This document shows positions 1,352 through 32,642 of a stretch of 32,908 nucleotides of DNA, one piece after another. This DNA comes from Gammaproteobacteria bacterium. GTDB taxonomy: Bacteria > Pseudomonadota > Gammaproteobacteria > Eutrophobiales > Eutrophobiaceae. The notes below the pieces were generated by a model. That model was given only the letters and a program-made list of their open reading frames with translations, had not been told where the DNA came from and searched no databases. Location of the stretch: assembly GCA_028281365.1 (NCBI GenBank), contig JANQJZ010000007.1, forward strand, positions 1 to 32,908, given 5' to 3'. The stretch's first letter is position 1, and each line of letters begins with the position of its first letter. Position numbers and translations under genes: made by a program.

Positions 1352-1780
1352 TTGGATATAAAGGTAAGTTGGGACGGTGGAGCAAAGTTTATCGGTGAAT
1401 CTTCTACTGGTCATGAGGTGATTATGGACGGACCTCCTGAAGGCGGTGGACAGGATCAGGGCCCCCGACCGATGGAAATGCTGTTATTAGGAACAGGTGC
1501 TTGTAGTGGTTACGATGTTGTCTCTATCTTAAAAAAATCCCGGCAGGCTATTTCGTCGTGTGAAGTGCAAGTAAGTTCTGAGAGGGCTGATACTGATCCT
1601 AAAGTATTTACAAAAATACATTTACATTTCAAGCTTTCCGGAAATGCTTTAAAAGATAAGCAGGTTGAAAGAGCAGTCTCACTTTCCGCTGAAAAATATT
1701 GTTCTGCTTCAATAATGCTTGGAGCAACAGCAGAAATTACGCACGATTATGAAATTCTTGAGGTGGATGGCAACTTGTAA
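1352..1780 (+). CDS. yhfA: OsmC-family protein YhfA
   Basis: A 142-residue OsmC/Ohr-fold protein. It has the two family cysteines, C51 in 'GTGACSGYDVVSIL' and C117 in 'EKYCSASIML', plus the 'GPRPMEMLL' segment before the central helix. Members of the fold include thiol peroxidases, but YhfA itself has no firmly assigned substrate. The start is TTG, with GGAG at 1341-1344 placed 7 nt upstream, and no in-frame ATG gives a better N-terminus. The gene diverges from crp across an 88-bp gap, the same arrangement as in E. coli. That gap contains TCACA-like half sites but no full Crp palindrome, so autoregulation cannot be claimed. Confidence 0.88.
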   Translation: MDIKVSWDGGAKFIGESSTGHEVIMDGPPEGGGQDQGPRPMEMLLLGTGACSGYDVVSILKKSRQAISSCEVQVSSERADTDPKVFTKIHLHFKLSGNALKDKQVERAVSLSAEKYCSASIMLGATAEITHDYEILEVDGNL

Positions 1781-26918: not shown

Positions 26919-27884
26919 CTATTGCCGTCTGGAGGCACTACGAAAAATTGAATAATTAGAACGAAAGTCTTTTCTTTTTAAGTACCGGGGCACGATGGAT
27001 TCGATAGGCATTGTTTCGATACCAGACCTTGCCAGGTCATGGCTCTCGCAAATACTATCTGTTTTTGCAGAAAGGTAATTATCTGTTGAAAAGGGCTTGC
27101 CAGGAACAAAATCAAAAATTGTCGCTTGTATCCGGGACAGGATATCGTTCAATGGAATAATGGTTCTGTTTAGATCCATCACATTTGCTGTGTATTCAAC
27201 GAGTTCCTTCAGACTATAAACTTTCGGACCACATAATTGATATTTTTTATCATAACTTTCCGGATCAGTTAATGACCGGACCATAATTTCTACAACATCA
27301 AGGACATATATTGGTGCAAATTTTGTGTCATGACAGGCCAGGGGAAAGAATAACGGTGAAATCTTTAACAGGTTAGCAAAGCGATTAAAAAAACTATCAT
27401 CTCTACCAAAAATCACAGAAGGTCTGAAGCTGGTAACATTTAATCCGGATGTATTGGAATGTAATATGTTTTCCGCTTTACCTTTTGTACGAAGGTAGTG
27501 GCTTTTACCGTTTTCGGCATCTGCATTCAGGGCACTCATCTGCAATAATCGTTTAATTCCATTTTTTTCACATGCGTGCAGAAGTTTTTCTACCAGACTA
27601 ACATGAACATGTTCAAAACCACTTCCATTGTTTCCTTTTTCATTAAGTATTCCGACCAGGTTTATGACAACATCACAATCCGAGGTTTGCTGTTCGAGCT
27701 GGTTTGGATCATGAATATTCGTTTCTACCAAATCGAGTTCGGGTAACAAAATAAGATTATCCCGGTTATATTCCCTGTTACGAGTCAGTACCTTGAGTTT
27801 ATATCCTTCACGAGCGAGACGATTACATAGTGAATGACCAACAAAACCTGTCCCACCCAGTATAGCTATACGATTAATTAACAT
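26919..27884 (-). CDS. NAD(P)-binding NDUFA9-like protein
   Basis: A 321-residue extended SDR/NmrA-type protein of the group named for complex I subunit NDUFA9. The N-terminal dinucleotide motif is 'ILGGTGFVGHSLCNRLAREG'. 'DVVINLVGILNE', 'QMSALNADAENGKSHYLRTKGKAE' (about 115-138), 'SFRPSVIFGRDDSFFNRFANLL' (about 151-172) and 'YQLCGPKVYSLKELV' are characteristic of that group. The catalytic Tyr/Lys pair is in 'YLRTKGKAE'. Bacterial roles are uncertain. The start codon lies inside the end of slt (11-bp overlap), so translation is coupled. Confidence 0.85.
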   Translation of the reverse strand: MLINRIAILGGTGFVGHSLCNRLAREGYKLKVLTRNREYNRDNLILLPELDLVETNIHDPNQLEQQTSDCDVVINLVGILNEKGNNGSGFEHVHVSLVEKLLHACEKNGIKRLLQMSALNADAENGKSHYLRTKGKAENILHSNTSGLNVTSFRPSVIFGRDDSFFNRFANLLKISPLFFPLACHDTKFAPIYVLDVVEIMVRSLTDPESYDKKYQLCGPKVYSLKELVEYTANVMDLNRTIIPLNDILSRIQATIFDFVPGKPFSTDNYLSAKTDSICESHDLARSGIETMPIESIVPRYLKRKDFRSNYSIFRSASRRQ

Positions 27885-29916
27885 GTCTGTTATCCGAAAT
27901 CTTAACAGCAGTACAGCTTAAATTGGCCACGAGATTTTTCTTTCTGGATATGACTAAAGCCATTCTTTCTTTAATAGGCTTAATTTTCGATTGTAAACGC
28001 CAGTCATAGATGTTGGCGAAATAAAGTACACGTCGGACATATTTGCGAGTTTCATTGAATGGAATTTGTTCAATCCAGACATCAGGCTCTTCACAACCGG
28101 TTTTGGGTAGCCATTTTAAAACACGATGTGGTCCTGCATTATAGGCTGCAGTAGCCAGCACCATATTCCCTTTAAATTTATCCAGCATTTGTTTCATGTA
28201 AGCACTACCAATCGGTATATTGGTTTCTGCCCGTTTTAGTTTGTGGGTTTTAAATCCGTTTAAGCCAATTCTTTTAGCGGTAACTCTCCCGGTTGCAGGC
28301 ATAACCTGCATCAGGCCCAATGCACCTGCAGGTGATCTGACATCTTCAATAAAAGCACTTTCAGCACGTACCAGACCATATACCCAACTGGGATCAAGAT
28401 TACGTTTTTTGGAATATTTATCTAATAATTCATTAAAAAGAATCGGGAAACGTAATACAAGATCGTCATATGCTTTTGCACGGCTCATAGTAAATATAGC
28501 ACGATCATGCCAGCCCCATTGGCTTGCGACAGCAGCGGCCATTTGCATTTGATATGTTGTCATTTTATTTAATGCATGGTGCCATTCACGTCTTGCCTGG
28601 TGTGACATATTTAATTTAAAAAATTCATAGGCACGTTTAATTGCCGGAAGAGATTCTATTCGAGAGAATTCTTCTTTATTTTCCGGTAATGGGTAATGAT
28701 TCATTCTGTAGGGCGAATTACTTTTATCTGCGGCAAGAAAGCCGTAATAGTCTCTTTCTTTAGCCAATTCACTAAAAATTTCATTAGCCTTTTCAATATC
28801 ACCCGTTTCTTCCAGAGAGCGTGCATGCCAGTAACGCCAGCGTAAATCGATATCAATTACAGGAGGTAGTCCAATGGTCCATTTTCTTAATAAAGGCCAG
28901 TCTTGATTTGCCAGTGCAGTTCGCAAACGATAATGAAAGACTTCTTCGTTAACGTGATAATTATCAATTTGATCGAGTAATTGAGCCGCTAATTTACTTT
29001 TACTTTTTGCTGCTCTTACTGCCAATGTACGTTCTATTTCAGCAATATCACCCGATGTAAAGGAATAATGATCCTGCAGTGACTCTAACCTTTTTAATGC
29101 TTTGGCAATATCCTGTCTAGCAAGACGTAATATCCCGTGAATTAATATCTCTCTACCAATCGGTGTGTCTTCAATGTTTGGCTTATTAGTATACTTATAG
29201 GGATTATTGTGAATTTGAATCCATTTTTTTGCCAGTTTGCGATTTTCCGCACCAAGTTTTTGAGACAGGTAATTAGCCAGACTAATTTGTGAATTTTGCA
29301 TTGATAACCGTATGCGTTCCCAAACCAAATCGTTTGTCATGAGCTCACTTTTATAAAGTAATGCAAAAGCTGGATCACATTGTGGCGGTAATGATTTACC
29401 GGTTAACCATATCGTTCTGATATCTTCCAGTAAAAAAGTTTTATTGTTCGTTTTTATTCTTGCCTGCAATTGATAACATTGCATCGTTGTATCTTTTTGT
29501 TGCGTATAGTTATCTAGAAATGTTTGCCAATGTCCACGTTTTACAAGCAATTTTAACCATGATGTCCGTAAACTTTCGGTAACAGGTAAATTAGAATATC
29601 GTTTCAGGAAATCAATAACTTCATCATTTTTTACTTTCCAGAGCCGTTTACGCAAATAGCTATAACGTAAATAAGGGTAGAGGGGATAGTCCTTTAATGT
29701 ATTTGCAATCTTGCCGAATGTTTTAAATTGTTTTCTGTCCAGGGCTTTGCTTGCTGCGAGATAATCTTTACGTTGTGCTTCAATCGATTTTGCATTAGCT
29801 GGGGATGTATGAATACCCGTGAGGAACAAAATAGAAAGCAAGAGAAAACCACACTGTCGTGACAGGCAGCTTGAATATAATGTTCTTCCCGCTTTAGGTT
29901 CGGTTGTAAAAAACAT
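27874..29916 (-). CDS. slt: Soluble lytic murein transglycosylase Slt
   Basis: Cleaves the peptidoglycan MurNAc-GlcNAc bond to make 1,6-anhydro ends in the periplasm. A signal sequence ends near 'SPANA'. A long alpha-helical superhelix of about 450 residues follows, and then the catalytic domain with 'YGLVRAESAFIEDVRSPAGA' (catalytic Glu about residue 519), 'LGLMQVMPATG' and 'LATAAYNAGPHRVLKWLP'. The frame opens with TTG-GTG-TTG-ATG; I chose the ATG at 29916 (680 residues), but TTG at 29925 is possible. Length is close to E. coli Slt70 (645). Confidence 0.92.
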   Translation of the reverse strand: MFFTTEPKAGRTLYSSCLSRQCGFLLLSILFLTGIHTSPANAKSIEAQRKDYLAASKALDRKQFKTFGKIANTLKDYPLYPYLRYSYLRKRLWKVKNDEVIDFLKRYSNLPVTESLRTSWLKLLVKRGHWQTFLDNYTQQKDTTMQCYQLQARIKTNNKTFLLEDIRTIWLTGKSLPPQCDPAFALLYKSELMTNDLVWERIRLSMQNSQISLANYLSQKLGAENRKLAKKWIQIHNNPYKYTNKPNIEDTPIGREILIHGILRLARQDIAKALKRLESLQDHYSFTSGDIAEIERTLAVRAAKSKSKLAAQLLDQIDNYHVNEEVFHYRLRTALANQDWPLLRKWTIGLPPVIDIDLRWRYWHARSLEETGDIEKANEIFSELAKERDYYGFLAADKSNSPYRMNHYPLPENKEEFSRIESLPAIKRAYEFFKLNMSHQARREWHHALNKMTTYQMQMAAAVASQWGWHDRAIFTMSRAKAYDDLVLRFPILFNELLDKYSKKRNLDPSWVYGLVRAESAFIEDVRSPAGALGLMQVMPATGRVTAKRIGLNGFKTHKLKRAETNIPIGSAYMKQMLDKFKGNMVLATAAYNAGPHRVLKWLPKTGCEEPDVWIEQIPFNETRKYVRRVLYFANIYDWRLQSKIKPIKERMALVISRKKNLVANLSCTAVKISDNRHVN

Positions 29917-30044
29917 CAACACCAAATTATTATCTTAATTAAAGGAATTGTCCTTATTTCAACACGTTTTCGCAATAGTTTTATCCAGATTAAAAACATC
30001 AGGAACTGACCATACTTTATAAAGAAATCTCGGTAAAATAGCTT

Positions 30045-30854
30045 ATGCTCTCTGAATTAACTTTAATGATAATAATTGCCTATGCAGTGGCTGGTGTTTT
30101 TGCAGGTCTCATAGGGGGTATGTTGGGTTTAGGCGGGGGGATAGTTATTGTCCCTATCCTGCATTATTTATTTACTCAGCAAGACTTTCCAACGGTGACA
30201 TTAATGCATGTGGCTGTAACAACATCACTTGCAACAATAATAATTACGTCAATATCTGCAACATATGCACACCATCGTAAAAAAGCTGTGTTATGGCCAG
30301 TCGTTTTTCGATTCGCTCCAGGCATACTTGTTGGTGCTGGTTTAGGTGCAATTTTGGCTGACTCGCTATCAAGTGATTTGTTACGTATCACTTTTGGTAT
30401 TTTTGAGATTTTGGTAGCTATTCAAATTGCATTTAAGTTAAAACCTGAAGCGAAAATGTCATTACCTGGCACGAAAGGATTGGCAGGTTCGGGAGTTGGA
30501 ATCGGGTTATGCTCAACATTGTTAGGTATTGGTGGTGGTACATTAACAGTACCGTTTTTGCTTTGGTGTAATGTTCATATCCGAAATGCTGTTGCCATTT
30601 CTTCAGCTTGTGGATTTCCCATAGCTTTGGCAGGGACTACCGCAATGATAATTGCAGGTTGGAATGAAATTGATTTACCGGAAAATTCATTCGGGTATTT
30701 GTATTGGCCTGCCGCACTGATTATTGTGGCGGTGACCGTTATTTTTGCACCGCTTGGTGCCAGGCTGGCGCATTATTTACCCGTCAAGACTTTAAAACGT
30801 TTATTTGCAGTTATACTTGTAATAGTAGGAGTTCGAATGTTGATGCAGGGGTAA
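30045..30854 (+). CDS. TauE/SafE (TSUP) family permease
   Basis: A 269-residue inner-membrane transporter of the TauE/SafE family with about eight hydrophobic segments. Both repeat motifs are present: 'GVFAGLIGGMLGLGGGIVIVPIL' at about 17-39 and 'GSGVGIGLCSTLLGIGGGTLTVPFLLWCNV' at about 148-177. Members export sulfite, sulfoacetate or other small anions, and some are tied to sulfur metabolism; the substrate here cannot be read. Its stop is 2 nt before the ATG of the CULT-domain gene, so the pair is likely translated in a coupled way. Confidence 0.9.
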   Translation: MLSELTLMIIIAYAVAGVFAGLIGGMLGLGGGIVIVPILHYLFTQQDFPTVTLMHVAVTTSLATIIITSISATYAHHRKKAVLWPVVFRFAPGILVGAGLGAILADSLSSDLLRITFGIFEILVAIQIAFKLKPEAKMSLPGTKGLAGSGVGIGLCSTLLGIGGGTLTVPFLLWCNVHIRNAVAISSACGFPIALAGTTAMIIAGWNEIDLPENSFGYLYWPAALIIVAVTVIFAPLGARLAHYLPVKTLKRLFAVILVIVGVRMLMQG

Positions 30855-30856
30855 TC

Positions 30857-31258
30857 ATGACATCACTGGTTTGGGGACATTACTGGTTTAAGAAAACAGA
30901 TCTTTTAACAGATCCGCAAGCTGAACAGGAAAACTCAGTTGAATCTGAACAGACTAAAAAATTATTTTGTCATGTATGCAAACATCATATAACTGATTTG
31001 GATCAAGCTATTTCCATTAATAATTCTCATACGCATACATTTACTAACCCTGCCGGTTATACTTATACAATCAATTGTTTTCGCTCTGCCACTGGTTGTT
31101 TGACAGTTGGTGACCCTACTAATGAATTTACCTGGTTTGGTGGTTATGAATGGCAAATTGCATTGTGTCAATCATGTAAGGAGCAGTTAGGTTGGTTATT
31201 TACTAATGATAATGAGTTCTATGCACTAATTAATGATCGATTAACTCATGTCCCCTGA
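30857..31258 (+). CDS. CULT-domain protein, bacterial cereblon-like
   Basis: A 133-residue protein consisting almost wholly of a CULT domain, the thalidomide-binding domain of human cereblon. It compares well with the Magnetospirillum single-domain protein MsCI4. The zinc cysteines are C38-x2-C41 ('FCHVC') and C104-x2-C107 ('LCQSC'). The aromatic cage is W93 ('FTWF'), W99 ('YEW') and W113 ('LGWLF'), with the same spacing (6, then 14) as the MsCI4 cage W79, W85 and W99. N64 ('TNPAG') matches MsCI4 N50. The physiological ligand of bacterial CULT proteins is unknown. The frame opens at 30704, but the upstream part lies inside the permease; the ATG at 30857 fits the family. Confidence 0.88.
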   Translation: MTSLVWGHYWFKKTDLLTDPQAEQENSVESEQTKKLFCHVCKHHITDLDQAISINNSHTHTFTNPAGYTYTINCFRSATGCLTVGDPTNEFTWFGGYEWQIALCQSCKEQLGWLFTNDNEFYALINDRLTHVP

Positions 31259-31358
31259 AGTGAGGGTTTGTAGGAGAATCCAGTTACAAAAGAAACTAGT
31301 ATGAAAAACAGTGAAACAGCAAGTTCTTTTGAGTAATAACTAACAATACACCAAGGGT

Positions 31359-31778
31359 ATGACAGTAATTCAAAAAACACTAAGTTTTAATACGCGGCCG
31401 AGACAAACACTGGAGTTTACCGGTGATGTGCAACAGGCCGTTTCTAACAGCGTGATACAACAGGGTCTTTGTCATTTATTTATTCAGCATACCAGTGCTT
31501 CTCTCATGTTATGTGAAAATGCAGACCCTGATGTTCGTGTAGATCTGGAAACCTTTATGCAAAATATTGCACCTGATGGTGATCCTATGTTTTGTCATAC
31601 AACGGAAGGGCCGGACGATATGCCGGCTCATGTCAGGACATTAATTACTAATGTCAGTCTCACAATCCCGGTTGCATCATCACGTTGTCAACTCGGTACC
31701 TGGCAGGGCATATATTTGTGGGAACATCGGACCAGTCCACATTGTCGTAAAGTAATCATGACACTTTATGGAGAATAA
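31359..31778 (+). CDS. yjbQ: YjbQ/UPF0047 family protein
   Basis: A 139-residue single-domain protein of the YjbQ (UPF0047) family, annotated in many genomes as a secondary thiamine-phosphate synthase on the basis of E. coli YjbQ activity. The conserved centre is 'LFIQHTSASLMLCENADPDVRVDLE', running from about 45 to 69. 'GPDDMPAHVRTLIT' and 'LGTWQGIYLWEHR' complete the signature with the conserved His residues and the E-H-R end. It lies 100 bp after the CULT gene and 1 nt before the DUF427 start, so it is probably cotranscribed with the latter. Confidence 0.9.
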   Translation: MTVIQKTLSFNTRPRQTLEFTGDVQQAVSNSVIQQGLCHLFIQHTSASLMLCENADPDVRVDLETFMQNIAPDGDPMFCHTTEGPDDMPAHVRTLITNVSLTIPVASSRCQLGTWQGIYLWEHRTSPHCRKVIMTLYGE

Positions 31779-31779
31779 A

Positions 31780-32064
31780 ATGGGAAAGGCAATATGGAAT
31801 GGAGCAGTATTGGCAGAAAGTGAAAACTATGAAGCAGTAGAAGGTAATATCTATTTTCCACCTGATTCAATCAACAAGGACTATTTCAAAGACAGTGATA
31901 CACACTCAACTTGCCCCTGGAAGGGTGAGGCCAGTTACTATGATATCCAAGTGGATGGAAAAACTAATAAAGATGCGGCCTGGTACTATCCCGAGCCAAA
32001 AGAAAAGGCAGAAAAGATAAAAAATCACATTGCTTTTTGGAAAGGTGTGGAAGTTACAGGGTAA
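31780..32064 (+). CDS. DUF427-domain protein
   Basis: A 94-residue beta-rich protein of the DUF427 family, function unknown. It has 'IWNGAVLAESENYEAVEGNIYFPPDSI', running from about 5 to 31, then 'DTHSTCPWKGEASYYDI' and 'NKDAAWYYPEPK', which are the family hallmarks. The frame also contains an ATG at 31768 inside yjbQ, but the ATG at 31780 has GGAG 6 nt upstream and gives the normal family start. It ends 2 bp before the stop of the convergent uracil-DNA-glycosylase-like gene. Confidence 0.88.
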   Translation: MGKAIWNGAVLAESENYEAVEGNIYFPPDSINKDYFKDSDTHSTCPWKGEASYYDIQVDGKTNKDAAWYYPEPKEKAEKIKNHIAFWKGVEVTG

Positions 32065-32066
32065 AC

Positions 32067-32642
32067 TTATCTCAAGATAGATCTGATTTTTTTTCTAAGC
32101 TCAGATAGATTGCTTTTAACAAACCAGGGGTTTTTCTTTAGCCAGATATTATTTCTTGGGGAAGGGTGGGGTAAGACGAAATAGTCAGGTAGATATTCCT
32201 GATAATGCTTTACCGTGTCGGTTAGAGTTTTCTTTTTTAAATCTTTTAAAAAATAATTTTGTGAATATTGGCCTATTAATAAAATAAGCTGTTTGTTCTT
32301 TAGTGTTTTTAGAATTTTATCCATCCACAGTTCCGCACATTCAGGTCGTGGCGGTAAATCACTTTTTCCATTGTTACCCGGATAACAAAACCCCATTGGC
32401 ACAATGGCAAAGTTTTTTACGTCGTAAAATTCTTCAGGTGTAACGTTTAACCATTCCCGCAAACGATCGCCACTGGCATCATTCCACGGAATACCGCTGT
32501 TATGGACTTTAATACCCGGTGCCTGACCGATGATGGCAATTTTTGATTTCGTTGAAAAATTCAGTATTGGTTTTGGAGGATAAGGTAAATGTGTCTTGCA
32601 TGTGGTGCATCGACGGATTTCGTTTAATAATTTTTGTGACAT
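32067..32642 (-). CDS. Uracil-DNA glycosylase-like protein
   Basis: A 191-residue protein of the uracil-DNA glycosylase superfamily (UDG-like, COG1573-related). The N-terminal 'EIRRCTTCKTHLPYPPKPIL' holds the C12/C15 pair; motif 1 is 'IAIIGQAPGIKVHNSGIPW' and motif 2 is the C-terminal 'FVLPHPSPRNNIW'. Further Cys residues ('GFCYPG', 'RPECAEL') could serve with C12/C15 as iron-sulfur ligands as in family 4 enzymes, but that is inference. Members of this short group have not all been shown to act on uracil. The ATG lies directly behind the terminator of the upstream YHS gene and has no Shine-Dalgarno sequence. Confidence 0.8.
   Translation of the reverse strand: MSQKLLNEIRRCTTCKTHLPYPPKPILNFSTKSKIAIIGQAPGIKVHNSGIPWNDASGDRLREWLNVTPEEFYDVKNFAIVPMGFCYPGNNGKSDLPPRPECAELWMDKILKTLKNKQLILLIGQYSQNYFLKDLKKKTLTDTVKHYQEYLPDYFVLPHPSPRNNIWLKKNPWFVKSNLSELRKKIRSILR

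Follow-up and report, generated by a model that had tools for sequence, protein, structure and literature searches.

What does a bacterium do with the pocket that binds thalidomide, and do the genes beside it tell us anything about its use? The bacterial CULT (cereblon thalidomide-binding-domain) proteins, the simplest natural form of this pocket, were described in 2015 as a group of single-domain proteins, mainly from delta-proteobacteria, with a few alpha-proteobacterial, gamma-proteobacterial and spirochete members (PMC4287342). Here, we analyze one such gene within a gammaproteobacterial stretch of DNA of 32,908 nucleotides (hereafter the window). A preliminary description of the locus had emphasized a minimal protein with an intact ligand cage, and it had taken the closely coupled TSUP (TauE/SafE) permease gene as a hint that a small anion or a cyclic imide or ureide-like metabolite might link a sensor to an exporter. 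The account that on balance we favor, with moderate confidence, is that of a conserved CULT cage reader, encoded by an accessory gene whose transporter neighbor is there by inherited gene order.

The gene product almost certainly belongs to the CULT family, of which it is a genuine yet ordinary member, and the source genome has a single copy. The protein passes the cut-off of the Pfam model Yippee-Mis18 (PF03226, E 1.3e-6), and the Pfam scan revealed no second domain in its 133 residues. The Yippee and Mis18 proteins share this model with it and have the beta-tent fold that would be expected of it; it is set apart from them as a CULT by the presence of the full three-tryptophan cage. In a phmmer search of the PDB, all 46 matches were cereblon entries and none was a yippee. 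They include MsCI4, the cereblon isoform 4 of Magnetospirillum gryphiswaldense and likewise a single-domain bacterial CULT (chain 4v32, E 7e-21; PDB 4V2Y family; PMC4287342, PMC4449219), and human cereblon, whose CULT domain has the zinc CxxC pairs and the three-tryptophan cage in common with our protein (matching stretch 35-117, E ~1e-9). Unlike human cereblon, the bacterial protein has neither a LON domain nor a DDB1-binding region; to our knowledge, the cullin-ubiquitin machinery is absent from bacteria.

The alignment with MsCI4 is ungapped from residue 37 to just past W113, so that residue numbers convert by the addition of 14. The zinc ligands C24, C27, C90 and C93 of MsCI4 thus become C38, C41, C104 and C107, and its cage tryptophans W79, W85 and W99 become W93, W99 and W113, with a spacing of 6 and 14; that the spacing is identical in the two proteins had been noticed at the outset. 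The asparagine picked out in the preliminary description, N64, is indeed the equivalent of N50, and the other MsCI4 ligand contacts (as given in PMC8900816), P51, A52, E76 and F77, are retained as P65, A66, E90 and F91. The characterization of the cage as intact thus holds for every listed contact residue and needs one amendment: its fourth residue is F115, where MsCI4 has Tyr101, and this is the sole cage difference between the two. The hydroxyl of that tyrosine raises affinity and leaves the binding mode unchanged, and human cereblon lacks it also (PMC8900816). A zinc-pinned beta-tent fold would be expected by homology; the AlphaFold prediction, made from four sequences, had a mean pLDDT of 36.

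Features of the CULT locus; positions are those of the window unless another locus is named
Feature	Position	Strand	Basis
Soluble lytic transglycosylase (SLT), divergently oriented; flanks the locus as a constant feature	27874..29925	-	Pfam, synteny
TSUP/TauE-SafE permease (269 aa); 2-nt gap to CULT	30045..30854	+	Pfam TauE PF01925 E 2.5e-57; synteny
AGGGG ribosome-binding-like stretch for CULT, within the TSUP 3' end	30847..30851	+	sequence
CULT (cereblon thalidomide-binding-domain) protein, 133 aa; ATG at 30857, stop ending at 31258	30857..31258	+	ORF translation, Pfam, phmmer, alignment
N-terminal aromatic motif Y9-W10-F11-K12, ~28 residues before C38; candidate docking motif	30881..30892	+	relatives' alignment
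First zinc CxxC (C38, C41)	30968..30979	+	phmmer alignment to MsCI4, relatives' alignment
N64, equivalent of MsCI4 N50	31046..31048	+	invariant across 29-sequence alignment
Cage tryptophans W93 and W99 (MsCI4 W79, W85)	31133..31153	+	alignment, PMC8900816
Second zinc CxxC (C104, C107)	31166..31177	+	phmmer alignment, relatives' alignment
Cage W113 and F115 (MsCI4 W99, Y101; here Phe)	31193..31201	+	alignment, PMC8900816
YjbQ/UPF0047, conserved downstream neighbor	31359..31778	+	Pfam, synteny
DUF427, conserved downstream neighbor	31780..32064	+	Pfam, synteny
CULT-rhodanese loci	L114:3005-3427, L119:3649-4071, L121:7248-7763, L126:7339-7785	same strand	

The survey of the gene covered the source genome's own phylum; bacterial CULTs such as those of Haliangium and Leptospira fall in others. 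CULT was found in 33 of 96 close relatives, in 30 of the 53 genomes of the source family, in 29 of 369 genomes of a sample of the class and in 21 of 398 genomes of a sample of the phylum; 20 of these last 21 lie outside the class, all of them in one other class (represented by 48 genomes). Wherever the gene occurs, its pocket varies little. Thirteen columns are invariant among 29 aligned proteins (C38, C41, N64, W93, F94, W99, C104, C107, G112, W113, F115, F121 and I125). Of 61 loci, drawn from 27 families, 60 retain the full set of zinc and cage residues, in which the fourth aromatic is either F or Y. CULT is an accessory gene that is frequently lost and whose pocket is strongly conserved. 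It nonetheless evolves faster than the genes around it (mean pairwise distance 0.54 vs 0.34-0.40). No phage, plasmid or viral carriage was found when it was looked for, and apparent fusions of CULT to other domains were rejected, since the long ORFs in L031 and L033 merely overlap TSUP in another frame.

Such a patchy spread could also mean that the gene has no present role and is decaying on its way out, and decayed copies do exist in three loci (L148, L060 and L061). We consider this very improbable for the source genome, whose CULT has an intact frame, all of its zinc and cage residues and the motif of its tail, with a pN/pS of 0.27-0.42 against relatives, a comparison in which synonymous sites are near saturation. 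The three decayed copies each differ. In L148, the last stretch of CULT persists between TSUP and YjbQ (1380-1440, minus strand) in a genome with no intact CULT, and this remnant is a case of gene loss in progress. In L060 (family f97), the CULT beside TSUP (1360-1790) appears broken: its first CxxC is in a different frame and the second zinc motif is partly deleted, with the cage residues kept; this copy (L107/L060) is the sole locus without an intact zinc and cage set. In L061 (1426-1829), CULT is split across two frames, which encode residues 27-92 and 78-131, by either a frameshift or an assembly error.

If the pocket is under such constraint, does its nearest neighbor reveal what it serves? 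The TSUP stop codon (30852-30854) leaves a 2-nt gap before the CULT start, just as had been reported, and the putative ribosome-binding stretch of CULT lies inside the permease gene; a terminator scan of the interval between them gave nothing trustworthy, and a promoter scan of the locus nothing above chance. This arrangement is what one would expect if the two formed a sensor-exporter pair, in which CULT would bind an anion, imide or ureide and either control or report its export by TSUP. The neighborhood moreover recurs. Among the 53 family genomes, with TSUP orthologues accepted at E 1e-40 or better, all 21 that have both genes carry them adjacent and co-oriented with CULT downstream, as a functional link would also produce, and adjacency is found in four further gammaproteobacterial families.

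The same genomes speak against such a pair in other respects. Besides the 21 with both genes, 9 have CULT only, 13 TSUP only and 10 neither, counts that come from one lineage with many draft assemblies; each gene is thus repeatedly absent alone, and their co-occurrence is not beyond chance (Fisher P = 0.39, in a test that ignores relatedness). In several genomes from which CULT is missing, the rest of the locus remains: three TSUP-only genomes keep the flanks (L146, L160 and L167), in two others TSUP is followed by DUF427 (L153 and L156), and one is the genome with the CULT remnant described above. When TSUP is missing, CULT mostly still adjoins SLT (L127, L128, L130-L132, L134 and L135), and the broken CULT of L060 stands beside an intact TSUP. 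Outside the family, TSUP adjoins CULT in 5 of 26 genomes of the class (two from f12 and one each from f140, f120 and f97, the last with the broken copy) and is not adjacent in the other 21, nor in any of the 20 genomes of the other class. In three of these four families (f12, f140 and f120), a wider gene block is shared. Elsewhere, the immediate neighbors of CULT are diverse (FIST, AAA/FHA, 5'-3' exonuclease, M48 peptidase, BatD and GGDEF), and outside the clade none recurs beyond rhodanese, in part of the other class, and common signaling proteins. Finally, the pairwise distances of CULT correlate no better with those of TSUP (0.51) than with those of YjbQ (0.52).

These co-occurrence, flank, neighbor and distance data favor a reading of the TSUP linkage as regional gene order with independent losses. 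That the order is regional follows also from the other genes of the locus, which stay in place too, in the family arrangement SLT(-) / TSUP-CULT-(DUF1499 or membrane ORF)-YjbQ-DUF427(+); the name DUF1499 is our own reading of the sequence by eye and not a Pfam result. TSUP is hence best read as a syntenic neighbor by inherited gene order and no obligate partner. We think it quite likely that the two genes are not functionally coupled, and the candidacy of TSUP as the functional partner of CULT, to which co-occurrence, synteny and distance correlation give no support, was rejected; a sensor-exporter pair seems correspondingly unlikely. The conserved neighborhood that had been anticipated among relatives thus exists, and it is restricted in range; the hint about ligand and exporter that had been drawn from it falls away, given the independence of the two genes and the unrelated neighbors in other lineages.

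Two other features of the locus deserve mention. Between CULT and YjbQ, relatives have either a further gene or a membrane ORF on the opposite strand; in the window, the corresponding interval (31259-31358) measures just 100 nt, a short part of which resembles the end of that membrane ORF, and so the intervening gene has probably been lost here. Some 520 nt downstream of CULT lies DUF427, a part of the conserved locus which itself has a beta-tent fold (PMC4287342). No sequence similarity linking CULT with DUF427 was found, and we treat their common fold as a coincidence and not as a meaningful link.

With the transporter hypothesis weakened, two leads remain, the tail with its conserved motif and the direct capture of the ligand, and the search for function shifts from the gene neighborhood to the capture of ligand and partner. 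The bacterial ligand had been called unknown, which is now only partly true: uridine is a low-micromolar ligand of MsCI4, which also binds thalidomide and partly folds upon ligand binding (PMC4449219), and for eukaryotic cereblon it has been proposed that the natural degron consists of C-terminal cyclic imides, arising from protein damage or by an enzymatic route (PMC11974815, PMC12117711). By analogy with these relatives, our protein most likely reads a cyclic imide or uracil-type group. Its cage would bind a small cyclic group by its imide edge (CO-NH-CO), and this group might be the C-terminal aspartimide or glutarimide of damaged proteins or peptides, as for eukaryotic cereblon, or a uracil-type base. 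Protein C-terminal cyclic imides are our tentative first choice, at somewhat less than even chances. PCMT, a proposed enzymatic source of such imides, is near-universal in the surveyed genomes and is for that reason uninformative on the protein-damage reading. A uracil- or uridine-type small molecule is possible but less probable, and we give much the same weight to a ligand of some other kind.

Should the ligand be of the pyrimidine type, CULT could act as a cytosolic sensor of uracil or uridine that has no protein substrate. The uridine affinity of MsCI4 argues for such a role, to which we accord roughly a one-in-three standing at best; the recurrent neighbors of CULT include no pyrimidine genes, and the uracil-DNA glycosylase gene that adjoins the locus (32067-32642) does so, among the relatives examined, only in the window and in L146.

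The tail qualifies the view that the protein is almost nothing but a CULT domain. That view stands as far as further Pfam domains are concerned; it overlooks the 37 residues that precede C38, as compared with ~23 before the first cysteine of MsCI4, which are mostly variable apart from a short recurrent aromatic motif. We defined the motif as one hydrophobic residue, then F, L, Y or W, then D, K, N, R or E, located 27-33 residues before the first cysteine; it reads YWFK in the window and often xFFD, also xWFD, in relatives, and across families its distance from that cysteine is some 28-31 residues. It is present in 16 of 18 family sequences, in 11 of 23 from gammaproteobacteria outside the family (8 families; mean of 2.0 on shuffling, with 0 of 5000 shuffles as high) and in 6 of 19 from the other class (shuffle mean 1.8, P 0.006), figures to be read with the knowledge that the motif was defined after inspection, that the shuffles ignore kinship, which inflates significance, and that start codons in high-GC loci are uncertain. 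For these reasons the motif is a lead and not a proof. It may mark a docking tail or partner site, a point of contact for whichever factor acts on the ligand once it is bound.

The adaptor ClpS, which serves N-degrons, offers a model for how cage and tail might cooperate. By this comparison, the bacterial CULTs would be ubiquitin-free C-degron adaptors, the cage taking a C-terminal aspartimide or glutarimide on damaged proteins and the tail docking on a protease or repair enzyme, a scheme that we regard as a long shot. A last observation concerns the recurrent neighbor in the other class: in four genomes of three families, a small rhodanese gene lies directly after CULT on the same strand. Taken together, rhodanese and TSUP could hint at sulfur metabolism, or they may again reflect inherited gene order.
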